From assembly GCA_018067045.1 (NCBI GenBank), contig JAGPVL010000009.1:1-64000 (forward strand): a stretch of 64,000 nt of DNA, written 5' to 3'. This DNA comes from Gammaproteobacteria bacterium (GTDB lineage Bacteria > Pseudomonadota > Gammaproteobacteria > Pseudomonadales > Alcanivoracaceae). A program made the translations under genes and the position numbers. Every line of letters begins with the position of its first letter. Within the stretch, counting starts at the first letter, position 1. Under the pieces are notes generated by a model. The model did no database searches, was not told where the DNA came from, and saw only the letters and a program-made list of their open reading frames with translations. Positions 20,813 to 43,258 of this stretch are shown in pieces.

Positions 20813-20960
20813 TTCCGGTGCGCTCATGCCGAGTATGCAAGCTTCTTTCCACCCTATTCTCTTAGGCAAATTCGCTTAAGATTTCCGCAGGAAGGAAATA
20901 GAAGAACAAATCGCATACTATCAACGCTTCAATAATTCACGCCCGACGGACTCGCAATCG

Positions 20961-22130
20961 ATGGCTAGAATATTATTTGCATGGGAGCTCGGCGAAGGCG
21001 TAGGGCACTTGGTTCCACTCAGGCCGGTACTCGAAGAATTGGTCGCTCAAGGGCATACGATTTTGGTCGCGGCAACTGATATTCGCTCTGCGCAATCCGT
21101 GCTCCGACATCTCACTGACGTTTTTGTACAAGCACCAATGAACGTCGACACTCGTTTTGAGCTAGGCAGAATGTCCGAAGGGGTCGCCGATCTGCTCACC
21201 TTGAACGGCTATAGCGATGCCACGAGTTTGCGCGGACGCCATACTGCATGGTGCGCACTCGCCGCATTACTGAAACCTGATTTGATTATTGCCGAGCATA
21301 GCCCCGGCGCCTTGCTCATGGCACGCGCACTGTCGATCCCCGCCGTGCACGCCGGCACCGGTTTTACCCTGCCACCGGAGCAACGACCCATGCTGTTTCC
21401 TGGCTTTGAAGCCGCGGCGAATATTCCACGCGAAGATCAACTTTTACACAGCTTTAACGCTTTGATTGCAGAAACTGGCGGACAGCCGCTGGTATTACTT
21501 GCCGACTTATATAATCGCGTCGCAAAACGTTTCCTGCTGACCTTTGCAGAACTCGACCAGCTTGGTCCGCGGCGAGGGGTAAACTACCTAGGCGCAGACG
21601 TGCCGACGCAAGGCGAGATACCCAGCTGGCCAGACGGCGGCAGCAAAGTGTTTGCTTACCTCAAACCCTTTCCCGCCCTCGAACAATTTCTTGATGCCGC
21701 CACATCACTCAAGATATCACTGCTGATGGTGCCGGATCGCATCAACCCCGCCATCCTAAAAAAATATCAAGCCAGCAATATTCGTTTCGTTACTCAACGA
21801 CAAAGCATGCAAGCCATTATTGAATCTGCCGATTTAATTGCATTCAATGGTAACCATGGTACCGCCACTGCAGGCCTGCTTGGCGGCGTACCAATGCTCG
21901 CGTTCCCTCTTCACCAAGAACAAGAGGCCTGCACACGACGTTTAGCCGATTCAAATCTCGGCATCGGCATGCTGCGCAATCGCCCAGGCAAAGTGCAACC
22001 GCTCATGGAATCGTTACTTAACAACACCCAGCAAAAGGAAAACAGTCTCGCTGTGGCGCAGCAGTATAAAAAATTCCGTTATCAGAACAGCATCGACTGG
22101 ATGCTCAACGAGCTTAGCGAGTTACTGTGA
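20961..22130 (+). CDS. UGT/MurG-like glycosyltransferase, first of two paralogues
   Basis: A 389-residue GT-B fold enzyme without a signal peptide. The N-terminal strand and glycine-rich loop (RILFAWELGEGVGHLVPLRP) and the C-terminal donor-binding segment (FNGNHGTATAGLLGGVPMLA followed by FPLHQEQE) follow the glycosyltransferase family 1/28 pattern, where NHGT replaces the more common HGGxGT. It would transfer a nucleotide-activated sugar to an unknown acceptor in the cytoplasm. It is clearly related to the gene at 27505. Its stop overlaps the GTG start of the GMC oxidoreductase (GTGA), so the two are translationally coupled. Confidence 0.82.
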   Translation: MARILFAWELGEGVGHLVPLRPVLEELVAQGHTILVAATDIRSAQSVLRHLTDVFVQAPMNVDTRFELGRMSEGVADLLTLNGYSDATSLRGRHTAWCALAALLKPDLIIAEHSPGALLMARALSIPAVHAGTGFTLPPEQRPMLFPGFEAAANIPREDQLLHSFNALIAETGGQPLVLLADLYNRVAKRFLLTFAELDQLGPRRGVNYLGADVPTQGEIPSWPDGGSKVFAYLKPFPALEQFLDAATSLKISLLMVPDRINPAILKKYQASNIRFVTQRQSMQAIIESADLIAFNGNHGTATAGLLGGVPMLAFPLHQEQEACTRRLADSNLGIGMLRNRPGKVQPLMESLLNNTQQKENSLAVAQQYKKFRYQNSIDWMLNELSELL

Positions 22131-23569
22131 TTAATCGCCGCCAATTTTTACAATCCGCCGGCTGGGCCTTGGCCGCATCCCCCGTTGTAAGCATCCTCGG
22201 TTGTACGCAAAAGCTGGCCGCCGAGTACGTCATCATTGGCTCGGGGCCAGCAGGTATTGCCCTCGCCGACACGCTCGCGCAAGCAGGTAAACAGGTACTG
22301 GTATTAGAAGGCGGGACACGGCAAACCGATACAGCACTACAGTCCATGCACGATGTCGAAGCCGGCCAATGGGGACTGCCTTACAACCTCGGCTGGGCAA
22401 CACAGCGCGTGCTTGGCGGCACCACGAATCTTTGGCAAAGCCATTCGCCGCGCCCGCTAGAAGAGGAACTGGCCAGCCAAACACTGCGCGGCTTTGGCGA
22501 AGACTGGCCGCTAACACTGAACACACTTACGCCATGGCTAGCATCCTCTGAACGCTGGCTACACGTTCGCCCTGCTCAGCCCCAACTCAATCCCTCGCTG
22601 CCTAAAAACCCCTATATTGATACCAGCACAGCACTCAGCGAACTGCTGAGCGGTAAGGGTTACACCCATCTCGAAGCGGGCGCCTACGGCATGGTCTCTG
22701 GCGAGGGCGCCGACGCCTTGCGATTGCTCGACGATGGCGAGATCGATCGCGTCGCGGCACTCAACACCGTCGCCGTTCGCCCCGGCACTATTGCGCGCCG
22801 CATCCGCATGACCGGCGAACGCGCCGTTGGCGTGGAATGCGCAGACCTCAAAGGAAACGCTTTCTTCGTCGAAGCGGGCACCGTGATCGTCTGTGGCGGC
22901 GGCATACAAACGCCACGGTTACTCTGGAATAGCGGCGTCGGCAACCACAGCGATTGGCTAGGCGCTGGCTTTATGGAGCACCCCGGCATGCAAATCTACG
23001 GACACCGCGCGGCGCCATTACTGCCACCCGGCGTTCCCGAAACCCATATCCACGTGCGCGACATGCTCTACGATCCAGCCCATAACGGACTCGGCGGCAC
23101 TTTGCTGCATGTTGGCTTAAAACCCGGCGCCCCGAACCGCGAGTACACCATGGTGGAGGTATTATTCGAACAAGCGCCCGACCGGCGTAACCGCATTCTG
23201 CCGGGCAATAAAAAGGATGCGCTCGGCGACCCGATTCCGCGTATCGACTACCGCCTAACAGAACTGGATCTCGCCACCATTCAACGCGGCCAACAGCTCC
23301 AGCACACCCTCGCCGAACGCATCGGCAGCGTCGACAACACGAGCGCACTGCGTACCGGCTCCCATCACCTACTAGGCGCCACGCGCATGGCAGCGAACCC
23401 AGCCAACGGCGTTGTCGACACCGATTTACGCGTCTGGGGCACAGACAATCTGTATGTCGCCAGCAGCAGCACCTTCCCCACCGGCCTAACCGTGCCTCCC
23501 ACACTGATCGTCGTCGCGCTCGCCCAACGGCTGGCGCAGCATCTGGCGATGCTCAAAGCCCACCCTTGA
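22127..23569 (+). CDS. Tat-exported GMC oxidoreductase, probable lipoprotein
   Basis: A 480-residue FAD enzyme of the glucose-methanol-choline family. The N-terminus NRRQFLQSAGWALAASPVV is a twin-arginine signal (RR at residues 4-5) ending in SILGC, which looks like a lipobox with Cys26, so the enzyme is probably folded with FAD in the cytoplasm, exported and lipid-anchored. The dinucleotide motif IIGSGPAGIALADTL is near residue 36, and the GMC C-terminal signature is at residues about 405-470 (GSHHLLGATRM, then VVDTDLRVWGTDNLYVASSS). It may oxidise an alcohol group of a glycosylated or lipid substrate in the periplasm. The GTG start overlaps the preceding glycosyltransferase stop. Confidence 0.88.
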   Translation: MINRRQFLQSAGWALAASPVVSILGCTQKLAAEYVIIGSGPAGIALADTLAQAGKQVLVLEGGTRQTDTALQSMHDVEAGQWGLPYNLGWATQRVLGGTTNLWQSHSPRPLEEELASQTLRGFGEDWPLTLNTLTPWLASSERWLHVRPAQPQLNPSLPKNPYIDTSTALSELLSGKGYTHLEAGAYGMVSGEGADALRLLDDGEIDRVAALNTVAVRPGTIARRIRMTGERAVGVECADLKGNAFFVEAGTVIVCGGGIQTPRLLWNSGVGNHSDWLGAGFMEHPGMQIYGHRAAPLLPPGVPETHIHVRDMLYDPAHNGLGGTLLHVGLKPGAPNREYTMVEVLFEQAPDRRNRILPGNKKDALGDPIPRIDYRLTELDLATIQRGQQLQHTLAERIGSVDNTSALRTGSHHLLGATRMAANPANGVVDTDLRVWGTDNLYVASSSTFPTGLTVPPTLIVVALAQRLAQHLAMLKAHP

Positions 23570-23730
23570 TATACCAAGCCACTTGTCGCACAAATCACAG
23601 TAAAAGTGTGTAGCAGTTCACATTTAGTGATCAAACCCCTACTATCCGTTGCTGGAGCACTTTTTACATTCGCTAGGGCGCTCACTTCACGCTACGGCGG
23701 AAATCAGAGCAATAATAAAAGGGATCTACA

Positions 23731-24921
23731 ATGAAACCACTTCAACGCAGACCGCTATACCTAGCGATCCGTGCCGTCACCGTCGCTGGCGGCATGACGC
23801 TCGCCGCAACGCCGGCGCTAGCAGGCTTCAGTGAAGTCACTACCAACAATCCATTTGCTGCCATTACTTCCGGCACAACAGGCGTGTCACTTACCCTGAC
23901 AGACCTCGATAGCGACGGTGATCTCGACGCGCTGGTATGGCATCGGGCGCATGACGATGTATTTCCTTTTTACTCGTCTGATATAAGCCTGTATGAAAAT
24001 ACTGGCACTCGCACTGAAGCCGTCTTTACACAGGTGCAAGACTTTAGCGGTTACGGCTACGGCGGTGACAACTTCGATGCAAACCCGTTTACCTACGACT
24101 GGGGCGGCTCAAGCTATGGCCACCCGGTCAGTGCTGGGGACTTAAACCAAGACGGTCTCGATGATTTTGTTGGCGGCAATGCGAATGTCGACAGCCTCGG
24201 TTTTCTGCATGGCATCAGCGTGAATGATGGCTACGGCCAAGCTACAGATTTAGACAATCGGTACGACGAATCGTCCGGCAACTCAATGTTCTACGGCACC
24301 AACATCATGCCGTACGGCGACGCGTATGGTTACGGTAGCCCATTGCTACTGGACCTCGATAACGATACCGATACCGACATTATCACCAGCTCTAACGGCT
24401 TTCTCTTTGCCTTCCAAAACAACGGCGTAGACATGTCCAATGTGCTGCAGCTTGCGCAACTACAGGGCCCTGCTCACCCCTTTGTCGGCGGCGCCACACT
24501 CGCCCTTGGCAACGCCTACCTCGGCGCGCCCATGGCGGCAGGCGATCTCGACAACGACGGTGATCTCGATATTTTATTGGGTGTCGCATACGGACCCGAG
24601 AATTTGCGTTACTTCATCAATACTGGCTCAACCTCCACGGCCCAGTTTGAAGAGAAAACCTTTGCAGACCTCGACGTCAGCACCACCATTGCGGCGGCCC
24701 CAGCGACCGGCGACATCGACGGCGATGGCGACGACGACGTAGTGGTCGTTGAACAACAGGCATCCGGCCCCGCGACCTTTAGGCTGTTCCTAAATGATGG
24801 CGCCGTTACCAGAACTGTACCAATATCATCATCTAGCAGCGGAGGCGGCATCGGCGGCGCTTTGCTGGGCGTGTTTGCGGGTGCAGCCATGCTGCGGCGC
24901 AGAAAATTAAAAAAATCCTAA
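23731..24921 (+). CDS. Secreted FG-GAP/VCBS repeat protein with GlyGly-CTERM tail (1)
   Basis: A 396-residue protein. A signal peptide ends at PALAG. Five FG-GAP-like, calcium-binding repeats follow, seen as TDLDSDGDLDAL, GDLNQDGLDDFV, LDLDNDTDTDII, GDLDNDGDLDIL and GDIDGDGDDDVV, which would build a beta-propeller. The C-terminus has the three-part sorting tail: serines and glycines (SSSSSGGGIGG), a hydrophobic helix and RRRKLKKS, as in GlyGly-CTERM proteins that are processed by a rhombosortase and leave through type II secretion. It is a tandem paralogue of the gene at 25020 and has its own terminator. No rhombosortase gene is in the window. Confidence 0.88.
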   Translation: MKPLQRRPLYLAIRAVTVAGGMTLAATPALAGFSEVTTNNPFAAITSGTTGVSLTLTDLDSDGDLDALVWHRAHDDVFPFYSSDISLYENTGTRTEAVFTQVQDFSGYGYGGDNFDANPFTYDWGGSSYGHPVSAGDLNQDGLDDFVGGNANVDSLGFLHGISVNDGYGQATDLDNRYDESSGNSMFYGTNIMPYGDAYGYGSPLLLDLDNDTDTDIITSSNGFLFAFQNNGVDMSNVLQLAQLQGPAHPFVGGATLALGNAYLGAPMAAGDLDNDGDLDILLGVAYGPENLRYFINTGSTSTAQFEEKTFADLDVSTTIAAAPATGDIDGDGDDDVVVVEQQASGPATFRLFLNDGAVTRTVPISSSSSGGGIGGALLGVFAGAAMLRRRKLKKS

Positions 24922-24930
24922 GAAAATAAA

Positions 24931-24961
24931 AAAGGCGGCAATGAATTGCCGCCTTTTTTTT
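24931..24961 (+). terminator. Intrinsic terminator after the first FG-GAP gene
   Basis: GGCGGCAATGAATTGCCGCC forms an 8-bp stem at 24934-24953, flanked by A on the left and eight T on the right, 12 bases after the stop codon. Confidence 0.92.
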
Positions 24962-25019
24962 CACTATTGAAACAACAAAGATTAACAGTCATTTACCAAA
25001 ACATTCCCTGGGGAAACCG

Positions 25020-26246
25020 ATGACAACATTTTCTAAAACACCACTGAGCAAAGCGGTGCGTGCTGCGGCCATAACCGGCGGCATCGCTCTGACCTCAACA
25101 GCGGCATTCGCCGCCTACCAAGAAATCACAGTAGACAATCCGTTTGCCACCATCACCTCAACCGGCACTTTCCCTTCTATCGTCATGACGGATCTGGATG
25201 CCGATGGGGACCTAGATGCTCTCATCCTGCACAACAGCTCAACCGGCATCAGCCCTTATTTCGGCGCGAGCGCCGTATGGGAAAATACCGGCAGCGCTTC
25301 GGCGCCCGAATTTACCCAAGTTAGAAACCAAGACAATCCATCCTACGGCACCGGTGAGAACATCACCCTCAATCCATTTGTCGACGATTTCACCGGTTAC
25401 TACGGCCACCCCGTGACCGCAGCCGACTACGATCAAGACGGCGACCTCGACTTCTTTGGCGGCCAATCATCCTACGCCAGTAGCGGCGACCAAATGGTCT
25501 TTTTCCGCACCCAGTCAGATGCTTACGGCGTGGCAACCGGCGCCGACCGCTTCGACATTTATGAGGGCCGCGATAACACCGCCATCCCATCTGCTGGCAA
25601 CCCTTTTTACGGCACCCAATTCTTGCCTTCCGCAGGCACCAATTATAGCTATGGCTCGGTGGCCGTCGGCGACTTAAATCGCGATGACGCAGTCGATATT
25701 ATCAGCACCGATATGAACAATATGCGCCTGTTTATGAATGCCGGCGTCGACACTTCACCGTATGGCGGCTTCAACATCTTTAATGAAGTCAGTGGCGCTG
25801 CAGGCGCACTAGAAAACGTCTCTAATGGCTACGGAGCCTTTGGCACAGCCTATTACGGCGCGCCAATCACGCTGCACGATGTCGATAATGACGGTGATTT
25901 AGATCTCATCATGGGAACACGTTTCCCGGCGCCGATGCGCTTGTTCCGAAATATCGGTACCGCGTCAACAGCCGACTTTGAAGAAGTTATCAACACCTCT
26001 CGAGGCATTGATGTCACCAGCAGCGGCTGGGCCTTCCCTGCGTTTGCCGATATGGATAACGACGGCGACGCCGATTTAATTGTCATAGCACTCGACGCAT
26101 TCAACTCGAACGCCCAGTCGATTCGTTACTTTGAAAATACTACGCCGCGAGGGACTACACCGGCCGCGTCATCGTCCGGCGGCACTATGAGCTTCGGCGG
26201 GTTAATGATTGCGTTAGGCTTGTTGCTCACGCGACGCCGCAAATAA
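25020..26246 (+). CDS. Secreted FG-GAP/VCBS repeat protein with GlyGly-CTERM-like tail (2)
   Basis: A 408-residue paralogue of the preceding gene. It has a signal peptide ending STAAFAA, then YQEITVDNPFATIT, which matches FSEVTTNNPFAAIT of the first copy. Repeats include TDLDADGDLDAL, ADYDQDGDLDFF, GDLNRDDAVDII, HDVDNDGDLDLI and ADMDNDGDADLI. The tail is SSSGGTMSFGG, then LMIALGLLL, then TRRRK. Both proteins keep the same order of parts, so they arose by duplication and have since diverged. They may be surface or extracellular beta-propellers that bind a glycan or protein. A terminator separates them, so expression can differ. Confidence 0.87.
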   Translation: MTTFSKTPLSKAVRAAAITGGIALTSTAAFAAYQEITVDNPFATITSTGTFPSIVMTDLDADGDLDALILHNSSTGISPYFGASAVWENTGSASAPEFTQVRNQDNPSYGTGENITLNPFVDDFTGYYGHPVTAADYDQDGDLDFFGGQSSYASSGDQMVFFRTQSDAYGVATGADRFDIYEGRDNTAIPSAGNPFYGTQFLPSAGTNYSYGSVAVGDLNRDDAVDIISTDMNNMRLFMNAGVDTSPYGGFNIFNEVSGAAGALENVSNGYGAFGTAYYGAPITLHDVDNDGDLDLIMGTRFPAPMRLFRNIGTASTADFEEVINTSRGIDVTSSGWAFPAFADMDNDGDADLIVIALDAFNSNAQSIRYFENTTPRGTTPAASSSGGTMSFGGLMIALGLLLTRRRK

Positions 26247-26301
26247 CACCGAGCACCTTTAGTGCCCGCTCGAAAAGCGGTATAAGTAATAATAGGCCGG
26301 T

Positions 26302-26332
26302 AAAAAAGCGTCCGACATTCGGGCGCTTTTTT
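26302..26332 (+). terminator. Intrinsic terminator after the second FG-GAP gene
   Basis: AAAAGCGTCCG-ACATT-CGGGCGCTTTTTT forms an 11-bp stem with one G-T pair and a T run, 55 bases after the stop codon. Confidence 0.88.
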
Positions 26333-26365
26333 ACATCTAACGCAAAACAAACAATTCGGATGGTC

Positions 26366-27505
26366 ATGACACGCATCGTCATCAGCGGAACAGGATTTAT
26401 CGGCCGCGGCCTCGCCCTCGCGCTGTGCCAACAGCCGCGCTTTGCGTTAACCGGTATTTATACGCGTCGACGGCCTAGCGATGTTGAGCACCCAACAGCA
26501 GAGCTGCTCAGCAACGATCTATCCCACTGCCTTAGTGACTGCGATATTTTGGTCGAGTGCAGCGGCGATGTTCTGCATGCCTGCGATGTGATTGATGCGG
26601 CGCACCAACGCAACATCCCCGTTGTCACCATGAACTCAGAGTTTCACGTCACCGTCGGCAGCGCGTTTCTCGACAGCGGCTATCTTACTGAAGCCGAAGG
26701 CGACCAGCCCGGCTGCCTCGCCGCTCTGCATCGGCGTGTCACCGCCATGGGTTTCGAACCGGTTGTGCTCGGCAACATTAAGGGCTTTTTAAATCACACG
26801 CCGACCGCCGAAGACATGAAAATGTGGTCGCAAAAGCAGGGCATTAGCCTCGATCAGGTTACGGCATTTACCGATGGCACAAAGATTCAAATCGAACAGG
26901 CGTTCGTTGCCAATGGCTTAGGTGCGAACATTCTGCAAGACGGCCTTGCCGGGCCAAGCAGCGCCCAATTACAAGACGCCGCTAAGCTACTGGCGCAACG
27001 TGCCGAGCAAGAACAGTGCGCGCCGATTAGCGATTACGTTTTGAATGCCGGCGGCCCACCCGGCGTGTTTATCGTTGCACGACACGAGCAAGCACAGCAG
27101 CCATTGCTGCAGTATCTAAAACTCGGCGAAGGGCCGTTTTATTTCTTACTGCAACCCTTTCATCTTTGCCATTTAGAAATACTTCACACGCTCGATGCTG
27201 TTGTGGCAGAAGCCAAACCGCTACTCAACAATGGTCGCACACCAACGGTTGGCGTTGTCGCCGTCGCAAAGCAACCGATTCACGCTGGCGACACACTTGA
27301 GCGCGCTATCGGCAGCTTTACATTACGCGGTGAAGCTCGCATGTTCTGTGAACATGAAAAGTACGTGCCGATTGGTCTACTCCAACACGTCACCTTTACG
27401 CACGATATTCCCGCAGGCGCCGCCGTAGAATGGCAACATGTTACGCTTCCCCATTCACGCGCACTGATTCTGTTTAGACAGCTTCTCGACAAGAGCATTC
27501 AGTAA
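26366..27505 (+). CDS. NAD(P)-dependent dehydrogenase with SAF domain
   Basis: A 379-residue protein. The N-terminus is a Rossmann domain (RIVISGTGFIGRGLALAL) of the Gfo/Idh/homoserine-dehydrogenase type; the middle includes DILVECSGDVLHACDVIDAA. The last 70 residues form a SAF domain (VVAVAKQPIHAGDTLERAIG and GLLQHVTFTHDIPAGAAVEW), like the antifreeze-like domain of sialic acid synthases. Similar two-domain proteins occur in sugar-biosynthesis loci, but their reaction is not established. The ATG at 26366 was preferred over 26360. Its stop overlaps the start of the next glycosyltransferase by one base (TAATG), so they form one unit. Confidence 0.75.
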   Translation: MTRIVISGTGFIGRGLALALCQQPRFALTGIYTRRRPSDVEHPTAELLSNDLSHCLSDCDILVECSGDVLHACDVIDAAHQRNIPVVTMNSEFHVTVGSAFLDSGYLTEAEGDQPGCLAALHRRVTAMGFEPVVLGNIKGFLNHTPTAEDMKMWSQKQGISLDQVTAFTDGTKIQIEQAFVANGLGANILQDGLAGPSSAQLQDAAKLLAQRAEQEQCAPISDYVLNAGGPPGVFIVARHEQAQQPLLQYLKLGEGPFYFLLQPFHLCHLEILHTLDAVVAEAKPLLNNGRTPTVGVVAVAKQPIHAGDTLERAIGSFTLRGEARMFCEHEKYVPIGLLQHVTFTHDIPAGAAVEWQHVTLPHSRALILFRQLLDKSIQ

Positions 27506-28701
27506 TGGCAAAACTCGTTATCGGCTGGGAACTTGGCAATGGCATGGGGCACATAATGCCCTTGCGCATGATCGCCGAATCTCTGTTGAAGCGCAGCCAC
27601 CACATCACCTTTATTGTTCGCGATGTTAGCAGTGCCGAAAAGGCGCTGCGCGGCCTTCCTGTGAAATGGATGCAAGCGCCGCAAGTGCGCTATCAGCCAT
27701 GGGAAATGACGCGCACGGATTGCTACTCACAGTTTCTCGGCAATATCGGCTTTCGCGATATCGACAAACTGCATGCCAGCACGCAAGGCTGGATTAGCCT
27801 ATTACGACTACTTAAGCCGGACGCGGCTTTACTCGAATTTGCGCCCTCGGCCATGCTCGCCTGCCATATCGAAAACATCCCCACCGTCCTGCAAGGCAAT
27901 GGCTTCTTTTGTCCGCCCGCAGACAATCCAGATCAGTTCGGCATCATGCAGAAGAAGCTACCCGACGAAATGCGGGCTGCGGAAGACGCCGCCCTACTTG
28001 ATAGTGTTAATGCCGTTATTGCCATCTACCAAGGAAAACCGTTTTCCCATATCAGCGAACTGTATGCTGGCGCCAGCGCGACATTACTGACAACGTTTCA
28101 GCCCCTCGATCATTTTGAACGTAAAGACAGTACCGATTTTTATGGTGTCTGGGTGCCAACACAATCCGCTCACGCAAGCTGGCCCAAAGGCGACGGAAAG
28201 CGAATTTTTGCCTACCTCACGGCGCGCCCCGGAGTCGATAACGTCCTCAAGATGCTAGCGGCTTCGAACCTACCGACACTAATTTATTGCAACGGACTCA
28301 GCGGAAAATATCGCATACCCTTTGTATCGGAACGCTGCCACTTTATCGACAGCCTCGTTGATATACGAGAGCTGGCCAAACGAGCAGACTTCGGCATTTT
28401 TCACGGAAACCATTCGACTTCTGCGCTCTTTTTACTGCACGGCGTGCCGTCACTGCAGATCCCTCTGTATATGGAACAACTGATGTTCGCGCAGCGTATT
28501 AAAGCGATCGGCGCCGGCGAAATCGCCACGCTAGACCAGCCACAACGCATCGCCGCAGCGCTTAACGCGCTACTCACCACCAGTGACTATAAAACGCAAG
28601 CCGATAAATTCGCTGAAGATAACAAGCACTTCGATCAGGAAAAACAGATTTGTCGCGCCGCCAATCGCGTTGAGGCCGTTCTAAAAAATATTGAGCGATA
28701 G
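27505..28701 (+). CDS. UGT/MurG-like glycosyltransferase, second paralogue
   Basis: A 398-residue GT-B fold protein, paralogue of the gene at 20961. LVIGWELGNGMGHIMPLRMI aligns with ILFAWELGEGVGHLVPLRPV, and the donor site reads FHGNHSTSALFLLHGVPSLQ then IPLYMEQ. It would be cytoplasmic. Two diverged paralogues in one locus suggest two sequential glycosylation steps or two acceptors. It is coupled to the SAF-domain dehydrogenase and is followed after 23 bases by the radical SAM gene. Confidence 0.82.
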   Translation: MAKLVIGWELGNGMGHIMPLRMIAESLLKRSHHITFIVRDVSSAEKALRGLPVKWMQAPQVRYQPWEMTRTDCYSQFLGNIGFRDIDKLHASTQGWISLLRLLKPDAALLEFAPSAMLACHIENIPTVLQGNGFFCPPADNPDQFGIMQKKLPDEMRAAEDAALLDSVNAVIAIYQGKPFSHISELYAGASATLLTTFQPLDHFERKDSTDFYGVWVPTQSAHASWPKGDGKRIFAYLTARPGVDNVLKMLAASNLPTLIYCNGLSGKYRIPFVSERCHFIDSLVDIRELAKRADFGIFHGNHSTSALFLLHGVPSLQIPLYMEQLMFAQRIKAIGAGEIATLDQPQRIAAALNALLTTSDYKTQADKFAEDNKHFDQEKQICRAANRVEAVLKNIER

Positions 28702-28724
28702 CGCTTCGTAAACAAGGATTTCTT

Positions 28725-29711
28725 ATGCACATCCGCTTTGCACAGATCGAACCAACCACCCGCTGTAATTATACCTGCGGCTTTTGTGTTGGCCGACATA
28801 TGCCACAAACAGACTTGGCATTACAGAATTTCCAACGATTCATTGATTCCGTAGAAGGCCTTGAAGCGATCGAGCTGCAAGGCGAAGGAGAGCCTCTCCT
28901 TCACACAGACTTTTTTTCCATGATCGATATCGCTAGAGCGAAATTCCCAAACATAGAAATATCAATGATCACCAATGGCTCGATGTTCACCACGGACAAT
29001 ATCGAAAAACTACTGGCAGCCAAGGTTGGTCGAATATTTGTCTCGGCAGAGTCCGTCGATGACGAAAACTTTCAAAAGATACGTGGCGGAAAGCTGGAAC
29101 GGGTGCGACGTGGCATTCGCGCGTTGTTGGCGGAGCGCAACCAGCGCCAGCTGAAACATCCAATACTGGGCTTAAGCATTACCGTGTTGCGCAGCACGGC
29201 AGGTGAATTACACGAAGCCATTCCGAGCTTCTATCAGCAGCTAGGCCTTGATGGCGGCATCAACATACAGCCGCTACAGAACATGCCGCAATACAGCGAG
29301 CATTACAGTCACGACATGCTATCGCAACGCCTAGATAAGGCCTCGTCAGATATCGCCAACACCGCCTTACAAACAAGCGTCGCCCTGAAGAAGGCGATAA
29401 GTGATAGAGGGAAAACTTTAGCAACAGGATTCTACGAAAGGCTCTACTCAAGCGTAGACAGTCGTTTGGAATGCCCATGGCTTGCCAATGGCGCCTATAT
29501 GACAACAGAGGGAACGTTTGTTGCCTGCTGCCATGTCAAAGACTATAACAAGTACGGCATGGGCAACTTAGAGGATGCCGGAAAAATTAGCGAGAATAGA
29601 AAGGCACTACAAAAGACGTTAGCGAACGGCGCCATACCCGAGCAATGTGCCGGTTGCACCGTCGCTCGAAATATTGTCCGCAACAACCGAATCGTTAATC
29701 GCAACATTTAG
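28725..29711 (+). CDS. Radical SAM/SPASM-like protein
   Basis: A 328-residue radical SAM enzyme. The 4Fe-4S motif CxxxCxxC is at C14, C18 and C21 (TTRCNYTCGFC), followed by ELQGEGEPLLH and MITNGSM, the usual glycine-rich S-adenosylmethionine site and strand 4. The C-terminal quarter has further cysteines (RLECPW, VACCHVKD, EQCAGCTVAR) that form a SPASM-like domain for auxiliary clusters. Such enzymes modify peptides, sugars or other small molecules; the substrate here is unknown. ATG follows AAGGATT. It overlaps the end of rmlC on the opposite strand by 4 bases. Confidence 0.88.
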   Translation: MHIRFAQIEPTTRCNYTCGFCVGRHMPQTDLALQNFQRFIDSVEGLEAIELQGEGEPLLHTDFFSMIDIARAKFPNIEISMITNGSMFTTDNIEKLLAAKVGRIFVSAESVDDENFQKIRGGKLERVRRGIRALLAERNQRQLKHPILGLSITVLRSTAGELHEAIPSFYQQLGLDGGINIQPLQNMPQYSEHYSHDMLSQRLDKASSDIANTALQTSVALKKAISDRGKTLATGFYERLYSSVDSRLECPWLANGAYMTTEGTFVACCHVKDYNKYGMGNLEDAGKISENRKALQKTLANGAIPEQCAGCTVARNIVRNNRIVNRNI

Positions 29712-30259
29712 TCGAACAAATCCGCTTTGCTAAATTCCACACCCTGTTGATCTCTTGTTGAGATCATTGGCGCGATGCCGTTCGCAAAAGGCCACCCTAT
29801 GGCCAGATCTGTATCGTTCCATTTAATCGTACGCTCTAACTCCGGCGCGTACCGATCGGTGCATTTATAATGCACTTTTGCGGCCTGCTCACCGAGAACA
29901 TAGAATCCGTGCGCGAAGCCCGGCGGCACCCAAAGCATCTTATGATTCGTGTCACTCAATTCAACCGAGAAGTGCTGGCCAAACGTTGCCGAGCTTTTGC
30001 GTAGATCGACAATCAAATCCCATATTCGTCCAGAAAACACACTGATTAACTTGCCTTGCGGCTTGTCGACCTGATAGTGCAAGCCGCGCAATACACCCGT
30101 ATGGGAGTAGCTGTAATTATCTTGGCAAAAGCGCTGATCAAATCCCTGTTCTTCTAGCGCCGCCTCATTCCACGACTCATAGAAAAAACCTCGCTCATCG
30201 GAAAAGATATCTGGCGTCAGAATTAACGCATCGGCCAATCGGGTTTTCTCGATTTTCAT
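29708..30259 (-). CDS. rmlC: dTDP-4-dehydrorhamnose 3,5-epimerase
   Basis: A 183-residue cupin enzyme that epimerises C3 and C5 of dTDP-4-keto-6-deoxyglucose. SDERGFFYESW, the catalytic histidine H61 in RGLHYQ, LSDTNHKMLWVPPGFAHGFY and YKCTDRY are diagnostic, and the length is typical. Start at 30259, coupled to rmlB by an ATGA overlap; a longer frame from 30322 would lie inside rmlB. It is tail to tail with the radical SAM gene with a 4-base overlap. RmlA and RmlD are not in the window, so the pathway must be completed elsewhere, or the product is not rhamnose. Confidence 0.95.
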   Translation of the reverse strand: MKIEKTRLADALILTPDIFSDERGFFYESWNEAALEEQGFDQRFCQDNYSYSHTGVLRGLHYQVDKPQGKLISVFSGRIWDLIVDLRKSSATFGQHFSVELSDTNHKMLWVPPGFAHGFYVLGEQAAKVHYKCTDRYAPELERTIKWNDTDLAIGWPFANGIAPMISTRDQQGVEFSKADLFD

Positions 30260-31338
30260 AACGAACTCTTCTTTCCCGCACGCATAAGGGCATTGCCATC
30301 CGCCAGCAAGCGCTCGGACCACTGATGATTATTGAGGTACCATGACACCGTTTTTTCGAGCGCCTGCTCAAACGTATAGGTTGGCGCAAAGCCGATGTTC
30401 GCCATTAACTTGCTTGCATCAATGGCATAGCGCACATCATGGCCAGGCCTATCAACGACATGCTCAATTAGCTCAGCATACGCTCGCTGAACGTTGGCGC
30501 TATCCGTTGTATCGATTGGCCTAAGCCGATCCAAAATCGAACATATCGCTTTCACTACATCGATGTTTTTCTGTTCACAATGCGCACCGACCAAATAGGT
30601 TTCACCCACGATGCCAGACTCCAACACGGCCAACAATGCGCGGGCGTGATCTTCAACATATATCCAATCTCGAATCTGGCTACCGCTGCCGTAAACGGGA
30701 ATCTTTTGCCCTGACAGTGCCCGCAGAATCGTTAACGGAATTAATTTCTCTGGATACTGATAGGGGCCAAAATTATTGGAACAGTTGGTCACAACAATAG
30801 GCAAGCCGTACGTTCTATGCCAAGCACGAACTAGATGATCCGCCGCGGCCTTCGTTGCCGCATAAGGCGAACTCGGCTGATACTGGCTGTCTTCGTCAAA
30901 CTTTCCTTGCTGCGCACCGAGATCACCAAACACCTCATCCGTTGATACGTGTAAAAATCGAAAACGTGCCCGATCGGATTCTGGCAGCGCCTGCCAGTGC
31001 TTTCTTGCCACTTCAAGTAAGGTAAAGGTGCCGACAATATTGCTTTGCAGAAAGACAGAGGGGGCATCAATAGAACGGTCTACATGGGACTCCGCAGCAA
31101 GGTGAATCACCGCATCCGGACGGTGCTCTGAAAAAATATTCTCAAGAGATCTTCTCTCACAGATATCTTGTTGATAAAAGTGATATCGATGAGAAAAGTC
31201 ATCACGGCAAACCGAGTTGTGAGCCGACGCATAACTTAACTTGTCGATACTAATCACGCTATGCGCGGTATTCGTCAGCAAGAAGTCGACCACCGCTGTG
31301 CCTATAAAACCCGCCCCGCCTGTGACAATAATCTTCAT
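30256..31338 (-). CDS. rmlB: dTDP-glucose 4,6-dehydratase
   Basis: A 360-residue extended SDR that makes dTDP-4-keto-6-deoxyglucose. It has VTGGAGFIGTAVV at residues 5-17, HVSTDEVFGDLG with the catalytic Asp-Glu pair, and the Tyr-x3-Lys site SPYAATKAAADHL. The start at 31338 has GAG 9 bases upstream and gives the family length; two upstream in-frame ATGs add only a few residues or an unsupported tail. With rmlC it gives the first two steps from dTDP-glucose to a 6-deoxy sugar, plausibly the donor for the glycosyltransferases across the convergent junction. Confidence 0.95.
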   Translation of the reverse strand: MKIIVTGGAGFIGTAVVDFLLTNTAHSVISIDKLSYASAHNSVCRDDFSHRYHFYQQDICERRSLENIFSEHRPDAVIHLAAESHVDRSIDAPSVFLQSNIVGTFTLLEVARKHWQALPESDRARFRFLHVSTDEVFGDLGAQQGKFDEDSQYQPSSPYAATKAAADHLVRAWHRTYGLPIVVTNCSNNFGPYQYPEKLIPLTILRALSGQKIPVYGSGSQIRDWIYVEDHARALLAVLESGIVGETYLVGAHCEQKNIDVVKAICSILDRLRPIDTTDSANVQRAYAELIEHVVDRPGHDVRYAIDASKLMANIGFAPTYTFEQALEKTVSWYLNNHQWSERLLADGNALMRAGKKSSL

Positions 31339-31424
31339 GAACATGCACTCTTTAACCACATCAGTCTTCAAATCAACCACGTTTCATCTTCGCCATCATC
31401 TTCACTATGCCACAATCCAAATGC

Positions 31425-32192
31425 TTATAACGTTGAGCAAAGATGCGCTCCGTCAACCGCCAACACCGACCCACTCATATAGCTCGATGCATCTGACGCC
31501 AACAGCAACAACGGCCCGTCGAGTTCGGAAAGATTGCCGATACGTTTATATGGAATGCGCTTTATCATTTTCTCGCCAAGTGGGGACTGCATGTACTCGC
31601 GGTTTATCTCGGTCAGAAAATAGCCAGGGCAAATGGCATTGCAGCGAATATTGTCGCGCGCATAGTCCAACGCGATCGCCTTCGTCAGCTGTACAACGGC
31701 GGCCTTCGACGCCACATACGCCGGAATGTGGCCACTCACTCGCAAGCCGAGCACCGAAGCAATATTAATAATGTTGCCTGCTTGCTTGGCGGCACGCCAT
31801 CGCTGTACGGCAAACTTACTCACCATCCACACACCTTTGAGATTGGTGTCGACGACAGCATCCCAGTCAGGCTCGGACAAGACGTCCACCGCGCCCACCA
31901 CATTCATGCCGGCATTATTCACGACTACGTCAATGTGCGGCACTCGCTCATGCATTTCTGCAAAAGCCCGCTCAATACTGCCGTGATCAGCAACATCCAT
32001 CTGCACGACACTGACCTGACGGCCCAGCGTACGCGCTTGCGTCGCAACAGCATCGAGCTTCTCAGTGCGCCGCGCCGCCAGCACTAGGTTGGCCCCAGCG
32101 GCGGCCAGCACCACCGCAAAATGGGCACCAAGTCCACTGGATGCGCCCGTCACCAAGACTGTTTTCCCTGCGAGCGAAAACAATGTCTCCAT
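31425..32192 (-). CDS. Short-chain dehydrogenase/reductase
   Basis: A 255-residue classical SDR with VTGASSGLGAHFA at residues 14-26, AARRTEK (NADP type), NNAGMNVVG near residue 91, the serine in IINIASVLGLRVSG and Tyr-x3-Lys in PAYVASKAAVVQL. GGAG is 8 bases before the ATG. It is 86 bases upstream of rmlB on the same strand and probably in the same transcript, though it is a generic 3-oxoacyl reductase-like SDR and not an RmlD. Its substrate is unknown. Confidence 0.88.
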   Translation of the reverse strand: METLFSLAGKTVLVTGASSGLGAHFAVVLAAAGANLVLAARRTEKLDAVATQARTLGRQVSVVQMDVADHGSIERAFAEMHERVPHIDVVVNNAGMNVVGAVDVLSEPDWDAVVDTNLKGVWMVSKFAVQRWRAAKQAGNIINIASVLGLRVSGHIPAYVASKAAVVQLTKAIALDYARDNIRCNAICPGYFLTEINREYMQSPLGEKMIKRIPYKRIGNLSELDGPLLLLASDASSYMSGSVLAVDGAHLCSTL

Positions 32193-35425: not shown

Positions 35426-38077
35426 TTAGGCGTCCGCGAGGTCGCCAACATCAAAATGGGGCAGCGACAGCAAGAATCGACTGCCCTCACCCGGCTGACT
35501 GGTCACGCTAATATCGCCGCCATGGCGCTCGCTCACGACCTTGACGAAACGCAAGCCAAGACCAGCGCCACGAATCTTCGCCGCCGTTTCGCTCGGCGCA
35601 CGGCTATAGCGATCAAACACCTGCTCTACAAACTCCGGCGCAATGCCCACTCCACGGTCACGCACCGCTACTTCCACCCGTGCGGGCACTTCAGCGCTCG
35701 CCTTGGTGACAGATAGAGTGACATCGACGCTATTACCCGGATGACTGTATTTCACGGCATTGGTCAGCAGGTTCAGCATCAGGCGCTCCAACAACTCGTG
35801 ATTACCACGCACCCAAACATCGTCGCGGGGGTCATAATGAAAGCGAATGGTGATGTCGCGCTCGGCCGCTTGCGGCTGCACCTGCTCTAAGGCACTTTCC
35901 ACCACCGGCAGCATATCCAGCTGCGCCAACTCAACCTGCTCTAAGGCCTCGACACGCGCCAGCTGCAAAAACTGCTCCGAAATATTCAGGTTCTTGCGTG
36001 CATGCAGATCAATGCTGTCGAGAAACGCGGTGATGTTCTTACCCTGCTCGGTATGGCGCATCTTCTCTGCCAGCGCCATTACCGAGATCATCGGCGAACG
36101 TAAATCATGGGAGAGGTAGTCGAGCAGCTCAGTACGCGTACGCAAGGCGCTCTTGATGACGGTGACGTCTTTTAGCGTGACGATCAGTACACGTCCAGGC
36201 CGGACACCCGCATCGACTGACGCCAGCTCCAGCATCAGCTCAGCGCCATCATGACGACGACATTCCTGCTCGACATGGCCATCGGCCATCGCCGCACCAA
36301 TCAGCGTAGGCCAATCAAGCTGCTCACCAAGCCACGTCAGCCCGTGAGCAAGATCGAGCAAATGAAGGCCATCGACCTGCTCAGTGGTGATGTCGAGCCA
36401 TGCCAATGCGCGCGAGTTTGCATATAACAAGCTACCGCAGGCGTCGCACATCAACACCCCTTCACGTAGCTGATCAAGGCTGGCATTAAAGAAATGCGTT
36501 AACGCTTGCTGGCGCATTTCTTCGTCAGCAGCGCGCTCGATATAATGCTCAACGATTTCATAGGCCGCGCCGCCAGCAGGTGCCGCAGAATTGACACGAT
36601 TGATCATCGCCACCATCCAGCCCTGCAACGCTTGGCTGGCCTGCGTGTCACGCCATAGCACGCTTAACTCATAGTGCTGATGACCTCGCAAAAAACAAAA
36701 GTGCCCAGCGCGGCTCGATTGCCAGCTACGCTCAGGCACCTTGATGCCGCCAGTTTGCACTGCACCACCACGCTGTTCCAAACGCCAAGCGTCAACCGGC
36801 AGCACGCGTTCAAGCATACGAATCAACGGCGCCATCGACACCGTTTCACTTAAGCGGCGGTTCAAATCGGTATAGCGAGATAGACGCGATAGCGCGGCGC
36901 GCAAATAATCTAAGGTGTATTCGAGCCGTCGCCACGTCCACAGCGGATATGCCACTACCGTCACCAGTAACGGCGCGCCCGGCGGCATCCATAGATGAAA
37001 CTGACGCAGCAATATAAACACCAACGCCAATGTGAGCGCCATCACCCCTGCCACCATTGGCATGCCCCACCGAGGCGGAATAATCGGCAACAACAAAGGC
37101 GCCAGTAGCGCAATCACCAATGTCGTCACGACAATCGCGGTGTCGCCCATGCGTTCAATAAATTGGCCGCTAAGCAGCGCATCGTAAATGTTCGCATTCA
37201 CTTCCACGCCGGGCATCAACTGGCCGCTGACCGTCAACGGTGTCACCAGCAAATCGCCAAGACCCGCCGCCGTCGCGCCGATCATAATGGTACGGCCCGC
37301 TAACAGCTGCGGTAGCACGCGGCCTTTAATCACATCCACTGCCGACACCTGAGGATAAGAACCCGCATCGCCACCGAAGGGAATAAAGCGCTGATACTGT
37401 CGAACATTGGCGAGGGTGCCGCGATGGGAGGAAGGCTGCGCAGGATATTTCTCTGCGATCCTCTTACCCTTATTGGGCGCCGCATCAGGCGCCACATCAT
37501 TTAGCATGGCCAGAGTAATATGAGGCCACCACGGCTGACCGATACCGGAGCGTAAAAACACTGAACGCACAACGCCGTCGCTATCCATCTCTAAATCAAC
37601 ATGACCCATGGCGCGAGCACGAGACGCAAAGCGGCGGTGCGGCAATAACTCAACCAGCTGGCCACCCGCGGTTTGCTGCTCGATGTGCACGGGCAAATAA
37701 ACTTGCCCATGTCGCTCAAGCGCCTCACCAAGCAGAACGTCTGAGGCGGGTCGGGACAAATCAGGCTCAGTCAGCAATAAATCCAACAGAACCGGGCCAC
37801 TGCCATATTCATGGAGCCGGTCAATCAGCTCTGCCAACCGCGCCCTATCCCACGGCCAGCGCCCCAGCTCACGCAAGCTAAATTCATCAATACCCACAAT
37901 AACCAGCTCGGTTTCTCGCTCCACCGGCTGGCGCTGCATCATGCTGTCGTAGATATAACGATCAAGGAAGGTCGGTGCCTGCATGAGCACAAGCACCATA
38001 GCAAACACCGCAATCACCAAGGTGACCAACAAGTGCTCTAGATAGAAACGACGCTGATGGCGCGTACGCAAAGACAT
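35426..38077 (-). CDS. CHASE2-domain sensor histidine kinase
   Basis: An 883-residue membrane kinase. It has one N-terminal helix (VTLVIAVFAMVLVLM), a CHASE2 periplasmic sensor (residues about 35-330; VIVGIDEFSLRELGRWPW is the CHASE2 start), three more helices (about 335-430), a PAS-like region (about 555-640), then the dimerisation helix with His657 in YLSHDLRSPM, the N box LLTNAVKYSHPGN and G boxes DRGVGIAPEF and GAGLGLRFV. Start at 38077: AAGGA lies 9 bases upstream and the previous gene ends 11 bases before. It is the last gene of an operon with a response regulator and a LysM-FecR protein. The signal is unknown. Confidence 0.92.
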   Translation of the reverse strand: MSLRTRHQRRFYLEHLLVTLVIAVFAMVLVLMQAPTFLDRYIYDSMMQRQPVERETELVIVGIDEFSLRELGRWPWDRARLAELIDRLHEYGSGPVLLDLLLTEPDLSRPASDVLLGEALERHGQVYLPVHIEQQTAGGQLVELLPHRRFASRARAMGHVDLEMDSDGVVRSVFLRSGIGQPWWPHITLAMLNDVAPDAAPNKGKRIAEKYPAQPSSHRGTLANVRQYQRFIPFGGDAGSYPQVSAVDVIKGRVLPQLLAGRTIMIGATAAGLGDLLVTPLTVSGQLMPGVEVNANIYDALLSGQFIERMGDTAIVVTTLVIALLAPLLLPIIPPRWGMPMVAGVMALTLALVFILLRQFHLWMPPGAPLLVTVVAYPLWTWRRLEYTLDYLRAALSRLSRYTDLNRRLSETVSMAPLIRMLERVLPVDAWRLEQRGGAVQTGGIKVPERSWQSSRAGHFCFLRGHQHYELSVLWRDTQASQALQGWMVAMINRVNSAAPAGGAAYEIVEHYIERAADEEMRQQALTHFFNASLDQLREGVLMCDACGSLLYANSRALAWLDITTEQVDGLHLLDLAHGLTWLGEQLDWPTLIGAAMADGHVEQECRRHDGAELMLELASVDAGVRPGRVLIVTLKDVTVIKSALRTRTELLDYLSHDLRSPMISVMALAEKMRHTEQGKNITAFLDSIDLHARKNLNISEQFLQLARVEALEQVELAQLDMLPVVESALEQVQPQAAERDITIRFHYDPRDDVWVRGNHELLERLMLNLLTNAVKYSHPGNSVDVTLSVTKASAEVPARVEVAVRDRGVGIAPEFVEQVFDRYSRAPSETAAKIRGAGLGLRFVKVVSERHGGDISVTSQPGEGSRFLLSLPHFDVGDLADA

Positions 38078-38088
38078 TCGCCGCGTCC

Positions 38089-39186
38089 TTATAGGCCCAA
38101 CAGAAGGGCCGCCCCAACGAGGAAAATCCATAACCCGCGTAAATCTTTTTTCGCGGCTTCTGGCTCAACTACTACCGGGGCGGGTCTTACTAACGAAAAC
38201 GTCGTCGTTGCTTCAAAGCCCCGTATACCTGCCTCATCGACAGCGCGTACTACCAACGCATACTCACCCGCTTCAAGCGACGCCTGCCATTGTTGCAACT
38301 CTATCGGCTCACTGCGCAGTAAGCTGCCGTCCGCTTGATTGAATAACTCCACCCAATAGCGCTCTGCGCCCTCGACCGACGCCCACGTCACGGTAGCTTG
38401 TGGCCACTCGACGGCAGCCGTCGCCGTTGTTGCCGGCAGCAAGGGCACCGGCTCCGACGGCGGCTCGCCCGGCGCCGCCATGCTGGCGAAGCCTGCATCA
38501 ACTTGCTGGGTTTTTCCTTGTGCGGATAACGCCACGGCGCCATCGAGTACGCTGTTGCGAGTCACTTCTTCCTGATCGACTTCAACATCGAAACGCGTGC
38601 CACGCACCGCTGCCACAGCACTCGGTGTGACAATAATAAAACGACTACTGCCAGACGTTCGCGGCCGCACATAAGTGCGTAACTCGCCGCGCTCAAGACG
38701 CAGATTGGTGTCGACCATGCCCGTTTCTTGGAAACGACTATAACGGTCAAAAATAACCAACGATTCAGGCTTCACCAACAGCTCAGACTGATCAGCAAAC
38801 AACACCCGAACGCTGCTGTTGTCCCCCGTCTCAAGAGCATCGCCGGCATTGACCTCAATACCCTGCGTGGCCCGCTCCGCTTGACCGCCTTGCTTGCGGT
38901 AAAGCATCACCTCACCGATCACCGCGTGGACGCGAGCGGGTTCTGGGGCCTGTTTCAGCCATTCAGTAGGAATATTAAGAATAGCCCCAGGCGGAATCGC
39001 ACGGGGAGAAGAAATACCGTTGTACTGAGCGAGTTCTTTCCAACACTGGTTTGGATCTCGGGCAAAGTTTTCACACACCCGCCACAGCGAATCACCAGGA
39101 CGGAAGGTGTATTGCACATCCTCCGCCAGCACGGTTGTTGCTGTGATCAAACACCACAGCGCCAGCATCAGTCTGTGCATGCGCAT
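38089..39186 (-). CDS. LysM and FecR domain periplasmic protein
   Basis: A 365-residue exported protein. After a signal peptide (LMLALWCLITATTVLAE), residues about 25-75 are a LysM peptidoglycan-binding domain (YTFRPGDSLWRVCENFARDP), residues about 90-250 a FecR domain (YRKQGGQAER, GDALETGDNSSVRVLFADQS, VVAVRGTRFDVEV-like segment), and then a fibronectin-III-like module (VTWASVEGAERYWVELFNQA). A final hydrophobic helix (WIFLVGAALLLGL) anchors it. It begins within the stop of the response regulator (TAATG) and precedes the kinase by 11 bases. It may pass a cell-wall signal to the CHASE2 kinase; this is inference. Confidence 0.85.
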   Translation of the reverse strand: MRMHRLMLALWCLITATTVLAEDVQYTFRPGDSLWRVCENFARDPNQCWKELAQYNGISSPRAIPPGAILNIPTEWLKQAPEPARVHAVIGEVMLYRKQGGQAERATQGIEVNAGDALETGDNSSVRVLFADQSELLVKPESLVIFDRYSRFQETGMVDTNLRLERGELRTYVRPRTSGSSRFIIVTPSAVAAVRGTRFDVEVDQEEVTRNSVLDGAVALSAQGKTQQVDAGFASMAAPGEPPSEPVPLLPATTATAAVEWPQATVTWASVEGAERYWVELFNQADGSLLRSEPIELQQWQASLEAGEYALVVRAVDEAGIRGFEATTTFSLVRPAPVVVEPEAAKKDLRGLWIFLVGAALLLGL

Positions 39187-39887: not shown

Positions 39888-39961
39888 GGTCCATCTCCTT
39901 GTGGGGCAGAGCATAAAAGGGATGCTCTGATTACGTTGAAAAACAGTGTAAAACGATATCG

Positions 39962-42952: not shown

Positions 42953-42984
42953 GAAACGCTTGCGAAAATATTAAACCGCCACGC

Positions 42985-43202: not shown

Positions 43203-43258
43203 AGACCTTTAATAGCAGCCGCCACCTGCAAGCCTACTTCCACAATAATTAGAAAACA

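Follow-up and report, generated by a model that had tools for sequence, protein, structure and literature searches.

A cluster of genes at positions 20,961 to 32,192 of a 64,000-nucleotide stretch of DNA, here called the window (contig JAGPVL010000009.1 of assembly GCA_018067045.1, from a marine-type gammaproteobacterium of the family Alcanivoracaceae), has as its core two glycosyltransferase (GT) genes, GT1 and GT2, a gene for a GMC-family oxidoreductase, genes for FG-GAP repeat proteins, and a gene for a DXR-like oxidoreductase (DLO). The block recurs in related genomes more than by chance, and genes of the same GT family repeatedly, though not always, adjoin genes for exported proteins of unrelated kinds. 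On balance we think it somewhat probable that the core is a dedicated cassette for the glycosylation of surface proteins. Below, "GT1-type" refers to the enzyme family and "GT1" to the gene.

A match to GT2 was found in 7 of the 94 genomes searched, our own included, and six of these, all Alcanivoracaceae, carry both GT genes, 4 to 7 kb apart from start to start. The five carriers besides our own appear to be Alcanivorax jadensis T9, Alcanivorax sp. DP30, Alcanivorax sp. 1008, an Alcanivoracaceae bin, and HGW-Gammaproteobacteria-14. The gene order is GT1-GMC-FG-GAP-(FG-GAP)-(DXR-like oxidoreductase)-GT2-(radical SAM), with variable members in parentheses, and it occurs in 6 of 46 Alcanivoracaceae genomes, patchily distributed over three genera. 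GT1, GMC, and GT2 are present in all six cassettes, with one or two tail-bearing FG-GAP proteins encoded between the GTs; two cassettes (genomes G005 and G011) have a single FG-GAP gene and no DXR-like gene on the spot. The core order has been kept while the GT and GMC proteins diverged to 58-67% identity across cassettes (58-64% for the GT1 orthologues of the five further genomes). A scan of the order for GMC, in which four candidates per genome were scored, gave hits at E≤1e-60 in 4 of 390 genomes, and all four have the cassette. The radical SAM gene is absent genome-wide (E≤1e-30) from two of the six cassette genomes, G013 and G023.

The gene pairs from which a preliminary description of this locus had argued for a single system are thus not confined to one genome, since they recur together with FG-GAP genes in all six cassette genomes. 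That description would have given up the single-system idea if the pairs were confined to this genome or if their homologues sat in well-described O-antigen or sophorolipid-like loci, and the idea withstands this check. The ten proteins examined in the flanks of three other cassettes have housekeeping or otherwise unrelated roles, and none belongs to an O-antigen locus: an RNA helicase-type protein, a phosphoesterase, an rRNA dimethylase, PdxA, a nitronate monooxygenase, a short-chain dehydrogenase, a VIT/VWA protein, an EamA transporter, and a further two that fall into no clear family. The GT2 of a contig labelled "Cellvibrionales UBA2511" (L059) is nearly identical, by branch lengths, to that of Alcanivorax jadensis, and the contig is probably misbinned. 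In G023 a VIT/VWA-domain protein is encoded after GT2 on the other strand (L024:15651-17780), and in G013 an ORF (open reading frame) at a like place bears a GG-type tail (L026:16017-18092).

The locus as first drawn holds up for its core and shrinks at its borders. The cassette and rmlBC fill a gap between yifB and an SDR oxidoreductase gene (window 20813-31424) that is variable in relatives, G001 having other genes there. The SDR gene is kept at all seven yifB loci fetched from relatives (L151-L155, L158, and L159), and rep follows it by 0.2-3.1 kb in five of them; at L153 and L155 there was no rep match within the following 3.1 and 4.6 kb. We therefore reject the SDR gene as a member of the system and count it as chromosomal backbone. 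In the four other cassette genomes in which yifB could be placed, the cassette does not lie beside it. The rmlB and rmlC genes accompany none of the five other cassettes, and no rmlD match (TIGR01214, E≤1e-30) was found in our genome, which is 96% complete; for these two reasons rmlBC are unsupported as the sugar source. An rmlD gene is present in G005, G011, and G028. With rmlB and rmlC standing without a detectable rmlD, their keto-sugar may go elsewhere. The radical SAM gene is best regarded as optional.

Both GTs are, as judged from family models and structure prediction, GT1-type enzymes of GT-B fold. Their matches to family models were weak (E 5e-4 to 1e-9) and to GT1-type models only, and the single score above a curated Pfam or NCBIfam cut-off was that of UDPGT for GT2 (20.3 versus 19.5). 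A model of GT2 built from 37 sequences (pLDDT 94.3) has the GT-B fold and lies closest to GT1-type enzymes that glycosylate natural products and phenols, such as the elaiophylin GT, the oleandomycin GTs, UGT109A1, and GtfD, with a query TM of 0.61-0.72 and 12-18% identity over the best 50 structure matches; its C-terminal donor-site region is similar to that of GT1-type natural-product glycosyltransferases. His16 and Glu324 are invariant in all 37 GT sequences, and such a pattern of N-terminal His and Glu is expected of an inverting GT1-type enzyme. GT1 and GT2 are 29% identical. Neither has a signal peptide by eye, and neither matches the NGT/HMW1C family model or the autotransporter heptosyltransferase (BAHT) model at E≤1e-3.

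The neighbors of this GT family in other genomes point to exported proteins as partners. A class-wide scan of 274 genomes at E≤1e-25 matched 11, our own included, and in 7 of the 10 others an exported surface protein adjoins the GT, as assigned by eye and partly by homology. The companion is a PEP-CTERM protein at L046, L049, L051, and L054, a giant TPS-domain protein at L045, an autotransporter-like barrel at L050, and by eye a haemagglutinin-like protein at L052, where SapC and FecR lie further off; at L047, L048, and L053 a surface protein beside the GT is absent or unclear. A scan of named genomes took the best 80 of 98 relatives, at 77 distinct loci, with a pattern alignment that held three PEP-CTERM-linked GTs and so was mildly biased. 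PEP- or GG-type sorting tails occur in 20 of 282 ORFs no more than two ORFs from a GT, compared with 2 of 581 at a distance of at least four, in a count made on loci that were not dereplicated, that include the cassettes, and in which some GTs were given a wrong-strand ORF.

Dereplication at 60% identity reduced 85 loci to 63 clusters. All ORFs came from a simple longest-ORF picker, and spurious ORFs in GC-rich contigs dilute the neighbor counts. Among 110 ORFs directly adjacent to a GT, a set that omits ORFs under 100 residues and four over 1,200 residues (L045, L068, L113, and L126), Pfam matches were to PEP-CTERM (nine), autotransporter (seven), Calx-beta (four), and RTX (two), and none of these had two or more members among 110 control ORFs five or six genes away, drawn at random from 169. 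Strict sorting tails lie within one gene of the GT in 7 of 62 clusters, for a null mean of 1.6 and a maximum of 6 in 5,000 draws. SapC is a neighbor at nine loci, and autotransporter homologues occur at 16, of which two lie over 5 kb from the GT. On a quick tree, with companion labels set by eye and the cassette rows (L056-L061) labelled "none," companion classes change 24 times, compared with 47 in shuffles; companions therefore follow GT subfamilies, yet have been exchanged repeatedly. Plasmid searches supplied two held-out records, opened after the idea had formed, and both have an exported protein beside the GT: on a plasmid of Pseudomonas sp. FeN3W a filamentous-haemagglutinin-type (TPS-domain) protein begins 35 bases after it, and on one of Sphingobium sp. 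TomTYG64 a 1,287-residue RTX protein immediately precedes it, with type I secretion genes upstream of the RTX gene.

Several points weigh against the glycosylation reading. By a tally made by eye, 25 of the 63 clusters lack a surface protein within two genes of the GT, and some of the 38 counted as having one are uncertain. A signal-peptide heuristic (46 of 114 versus 136 of 466) gives a weak contrast, and gene adjacency alone is no proof of an enzyme and its substrate.

Some features of these neighborhoods deserve separate mention. A SapC-FecR-GT arrangement recurs at L052, L089, L105, L106, L107, L110, L112, L115, and L122, mostly in Nevskiaceae, in some cases with haemagglutinin-like genes by eye. 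At L064:10001-13522 the GT is fused in a single ORF with TPR repeats and with a sulfotransferase domain. Genes of sulfotransferase type also neighbor the GT in L062, L063, L073, and L085, and in L156 and L157 the DXR-like gene has one beside it. At L046:6147-8347 and L050:5692-7726 a GMC oxidoreductase gene is close to the GT and is accompanied by a small gene for a Tat-type partner that by eye resembles gluconate dehydrogenase subunit 3. A second GT copy in G450 is split over two ORFs (L055:9491-10959) and is probably broken or mis-sequenced.

The leading candidate for an acceptor site is the dipeptide Tyr-Gly, which, without prior search for it, topped the ranking of dipeptides by enrichment in each of three partner sets. 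Observed and expected counts were 44 and 11.8 in six FG-GAP proteins, 55 and 24.8 in 14 PEP-CTERM proteins, and 159 and 54.6 in 15 other partners (the L125 partner is omitted from the three sets), compared with 326 and 297.7 in 425 control ORFs. A second count, which involves no choice of partners and covers 58 of the 63 clusters, the cassette among them, shows that the ORF richest in Tyr-Gly directly adjoins the GT in 23 clusters, where 9.4 would be expected by chance; Tyr-Gly is first of all 400 dipeptides in this respect (mean 9.3, standard deviation 3.0, next best 17). In sampled stretches of single genomes, FG-GAP proteins 1 and 2 of the window rank first and second of 320 ORFs for Tyr-Gly (9 versus 1.9 and 8 versus 1.8 expected), and partners elsewhere rank 1 of 312 (G450, where one partner was counted twice in two overlapping stretches), 3 and 5 of 320 (G013), 5 of 313 (G544), and 8 and 107 of 267 (G619). 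The NxS/T sequon is not enriched in 18 partner proteins (70 versus 63.5), and we reject it as the acceptor.

An explanation in which Tyr-Gly is structural or cross-linking, through beta-repeat geometry or tyrosine adhesion, while the GT acts on other residues or targets, is a serious competitor to which we give slightly less than an even chance. An aromatic-Gly pair stands at the start of FG-GAP repeats, and some of the Tyr-Gly counted in these proteins belong to the repeat itself; with repeat-start Tyr-Gly removed, ten FG-GAP proteins still have 49 versus 19.4. The same explanation would suit the GT loci that lack enrichment, which include those with SapC or RTX neighbors and several with autotransporters, and it would suit the competition from Thr-Ile, which (5.7) slightly passes Tyr-Gly (5.2) in the pooled data once ORFs of at least 1,300 residues are left out. 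Further points count against Tyr-Gly as the acceptor: there is no clear enrichment in the RTX protein of the held-out Sphingobium plasmid (7 versus 5.5) or in one of the two PEP-CTERM partners at L051 (rank 107 of 267), one giant protein, with 97, contributes most of the 159 counts in the mixed set, and the motif was recognized post hoc, on loci that partly coincide with those used to assess it. A purely structural origin is harder to reconcile with the 254 exported-like ORFs of five genomes that have no GT partner, in which Tyr-Gly is not enriched (232 versus 222.8), although class-matched controls are few (eight unpartnered tail proteins, 11 versus 8.9). It also fits poorly with an enrichment common to unrelated partner folds and seen again in one of two held-out partners, the FeN3W TPS protein (15 versus 4.6, the best of its locus). 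Judged from these counts, Tyr-Gly appears to be a strong lead for part of the GT family and not a rule.

The DXR-like oxidoreductase follows the cassette closely. Its gene is found in exactly the six GT2-bearing cassette genomes and in none of the 40 others of Alcanivoracaceae, a co-occurrence with a hypergeometric chance of 1 in 9.4 million if genomes were independent, which these, from three genera only, are not. In G005 and G011 the gene is unlinked from the cassette and sits beside a sulfotransferase-type gene (by Pfam at L156). The preliminary description had called the protein an SAF dehydrogenase; it matches DRL_cat (DXR-like, E 3e-39), and the family-model scan gave no separate SAF match. 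The nearest structure is 3upl, which we take to be Brucella DRL, and in an alignment to it the protein has Ile and Gln at the equivalents of Thr229 and Arg320. Passages of PMC3847144 name Thr229 and Arg320 as key DXR-II positions, give Ile at position 229 as a DLO1 trait, and call the DLO families previously uncharacterised. A canonical DXR is present in all seven genomes tested, and with this and the two exchanged residues a role in the methylerythritol phosphate pathway is rejected; the oxidoreductase therefore belongs with the DLO enzymes. In a 398-genome draw of the phylum, DLO genes were found at 25 places in 18 other genomes, of which six places, in four genomes, were opened. Sugar-nucleotide genes adjoin the DLO gene at three of the six: a glucose-1-phosphate cytidylyltransferase and an NAD-dependent epimerase-type protein are encoded near it at L189, an rmlC-type epimerase and then a PIG-L deacetylase at L190, and a fused glycosyltransferase-RmlD protein at L188. 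At L186 there is a MurJ-like gene by eye, and at L185 and L187 no sugar genes were seen by eye. Because sugar-nucleotide genes occur at several of its places, the evidence favors a part for the DLO enzyme in making a sugar.

The proteins between the GTs carry the marks of sorted surface proteins. Sorting-type tails and FG-GAP_3 matches in both propellers agree with the preliminary description; the tail model itself, TIGR03501 (GlyGly-CTERM), was matched weakly, by 7 of 10 cassette FG-GAP proteins at E≤10 with a best E of 0.043. Rhombosortase scored above its cut-off in 11 of 11 Alcanivoracaceae genomes tested, with and without the cassette; it is thus not cassette-specific, a point against the glycosylation reading. 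Passages of PMC3237569 credit Alcanivorax borkumensis with three GlyGly-CTERM proteins. Given rhombosortase and the C-terminal tails, the FG-GAP proteins are likely retained at the surface.

From the conservation, co-occurrence, export signals, fold, pairing of GTs with surface proteins, and Tyr-Gly enrichment of some partners we infer the catalytic steps, the sugar donor, the acceptor, and the order of steps as follows. The DLO oxidoreductase would make or tailor a sugar donor in the cytoplasm, where GT1 and GT2 would add sugars to the FG-GAP proteins ahead of their export by Sec; the leading candidate acceptor is the Tyr-Gly motif. The GMC lipoprotein, exported by the Tat route, would then oxidize the glycan in the periplasm, a step proposed because of its Tat-lipoprotein signal and because its nearest solved structures by sequence are sugar dehydrogenases (the FAD glucose and fructose dehydrogenases). 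Rhombosortase would process the C-terminal tail, leaving the FG-GAP proteins at the surface, and the radical SAM enzyme would be an optional tailoring step.

The preliminary description had hesitated between decoration of the FG-GAP proteins and a glycolipid. We find decoration better supported, because the FG-GAP genes are constant companions and the GT family stands elsewhere beside other exported proteins. That the GTs make a glycolipid, or a small glycoside for secretion, which the GMC enzyme oxidizes in the periplasm and the FG-GAP proteins only bind or display, is in our judgment unlikely. It would agree with the fold and nearest structures of GT2, which are small-molecule GT1-type enzymes, and with the kinship of the GMC protein to sugar dehydrogenases; but it does not account for FG-GAP genes between the GTs in six of six cassettes, it leaves the recurrent exported companions of unrelated kinds unexplained, and family-model scans found no lipid synthesis gene among the cassette genes. 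Less probable still is that the GTs modify the C-terminal sorting anchor (a rhombosortase glycerophosphoethanolamine-type end or its exosortase equivalent) and not the protein body. GlyGly-CTERM-like and PEP-CTERM partners both carry sorting tails, rhombosortase is present, and the anchor chemistry of VesB is described in passages of PMC6219818; yet the autotransporter, TPS, RTX, and SapC partners are not tail-sorted, and the GTs lack a signal peptide by eye while sorting takes place across the membrane. Least credible is a genome-island coincidence of co-inherited but functionally unrelated genes, for although the window copy lies in the variable yifB-SDR gap and the distribution is patchy over three genera, the core order persists at 58-67% identity in differing chromosomal places and the DLO gene follows the cassette even when unlinked. 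Overall, the interpretation given in the preliminary description is partly supported.

Table 1. Genes of the locus and its border, with window coordinates.
Feature	Coordinates	Strand	Description
GT1	20961..22130	+	GT1-type glycosyltransferase (UGT-like, predicted GT-B fold); long-branch paralogue of GT2
GMC	22127..23569	+	Predicted Tat-exported lipoprotein FAD oxidoreductase (family model, RR and Cys26)
FG-GAP protein 1	23731..24921	+	Signal peptide (by eye), FG-GAP repeats, C-terminal sorting-type tail
FG-GAP protein 2	25020..26246	+	Built like protein 1; 42% identity to protein 1
DLO	26360..27505	+	DXR-II-like NAD(P)-dependent oxidoreductase; start probably 26366
GT2	27505..28701	+	GT1-type glycosyltransferase; GT-B fold in model
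Radical SAM/SPASM-like protein	28725..29711	+	Accessory; 4 of 6 cassette genomes
rmlC	29708..30322	-	dTDP-4-dehydrorhamnose 3,5-epimerase; true start probably internal
rmlB	30256..31380	-	dTDP-glucose 4,6-dehydratase; TIGR model above cut-off
SDR oxidoreductase	31425..32192	-	Outside cassette; backbone gene downstream of yifB in relatives

All ORFs in Table 1 are open at the coordinates given. The close spacing claimed for the locus is confirmed: GT1 and GMC overlap by 4 bases and the oxidoreductase and GT2 genes by 1 base, the radical SAM gene starts 23 bases after GT2, and rmlC converges on it. Family models gave E values of 1.4e-21 for GMC_oxred_C and 2.3e-16 for Radical_SAM, and the rmlC product, like that of rmlB, scores above its TIGR cut-off. 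In the GMC protein an Arg-Arg pair and the lipobox residue Cys26 are invariant in six of six orthologues, as the proposal of a Tat-exported lipoprotein would have it. Rfam and tRNA scans of the window found nothing besides a tRNA-Arg, and composition analysis was uninformative. Elsewhere in the window, 14.3 perfect copies of GGGTTT occupy positions 1-86 at the very start of the contig, either a contig-end artefact or a real repeat, and a 96-base tandem unit is present in 2.3 copies with 83% matches at 42983-43204. A LysM-FecR protein, a CHASE2-type histidine kinase, and an OmpR-type regulator (names by eye) are encoded in a row at 35426-39914, and in several relatives the kinase gene has likewise stayed close to rep.

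Tyrosine also serves as a sugar acceptor on surface proteins of Paenibacillus: its S-layer proteins are Tyr-O-glycosylated, by oligosaccharide transfer in a Gram-positive organism and by other enzymes. To our knowledge, the partner proteins considered here, FG-GAP propellers and PEP-CTERM proteins, are mostly without known function, and we know of no natural-product GT1-type enzymes encoded beside exported proteins. Those enzymes (YjiC, UGT109A1, the oleandomycin GTs, CalG, and GtfD) resemble GT2 in fold and in the C-terminal donor-site region but share 12-18% identity with it and act on small molecules. Among the papers listed by searches of an open-access library, none was seen from its title and the opening of its abstract to describe GT1-type enzymes encoded beside PEP-CTERM, autotransporter, or FG-GAP proteins, and for PEP-CTERM systems passages of PMC1569441 mention only exopolysaccharide-type glycosyltransferases. 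The FG-GAP proteins resemble substrates of the known GlyGly-CTERM/rhombosortase system in tail type (by the weak model match) and in the presence of rhombosortase in the genome, and differ in having a dedicated GT, which passages on the known system do not mention. The oxidoreductase shares with the DLO1/DLO2 enzymes the catalytic domain and the nearest structure, and with DLO1 the Ile at 229; what differs is its tie to a proposed glycosylation cassette.

The closest functional parallels are NGTs and BAHTs, which passages of PMC8151025 present as two classes of glycosyltransferase that act in the cytoplasm on type 5 secreted proteins. By analogy, the best reading is that the cassette works like HMW1C or the autotransporter heptosyltransferases, with an unrelated enzyme family. 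According to those passages, in HMW1C-like NGT systems too the cytoplasmic GT gene adjoins that of its exported target, which is modified before export, and TPS-domain proteins are among the partners here as well; in contrast, the cassette GTs match no NGT model and have a predicted GT1/UGT-like fold, NxS/T is not enriched, and the partners extend beyond TPS proteins. BAHTs, in the same passages, provide dedicated cytoplasmic O-glycosylation of exported surface proteins, and autotransporters are partners of our GT family too, whereas no BAHT-type model matches here and the candidate acceptor is Tyr and not Ser or Thr. We put forward tentatively, as an idea that may well prove wrong, that these GTs form a third, widespread class of cytoplasmic GT for exported Gram-negative surface proteins, of GT1-type fold and akin to phenol and macrolide GTs, which would glycosylate the tyrosines of Tyr-Gly in PEP-CTERM, GlyGly-CTERM, and TPS proteins and in some autotransporters, with a DXR-like oxidoreductase taking part in making the Alcanivoracaceae glycan and a periplasmic flavoenzyme completing it. 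If so, a so far unstudied GT family may give bacteria a further way to decorate their surface, with a short acceptor motif open to direct test and a genetic context for the DLO oxidoreductases, and would stand beside NGTs and BAHTs as an unrelated class serving several export routes.

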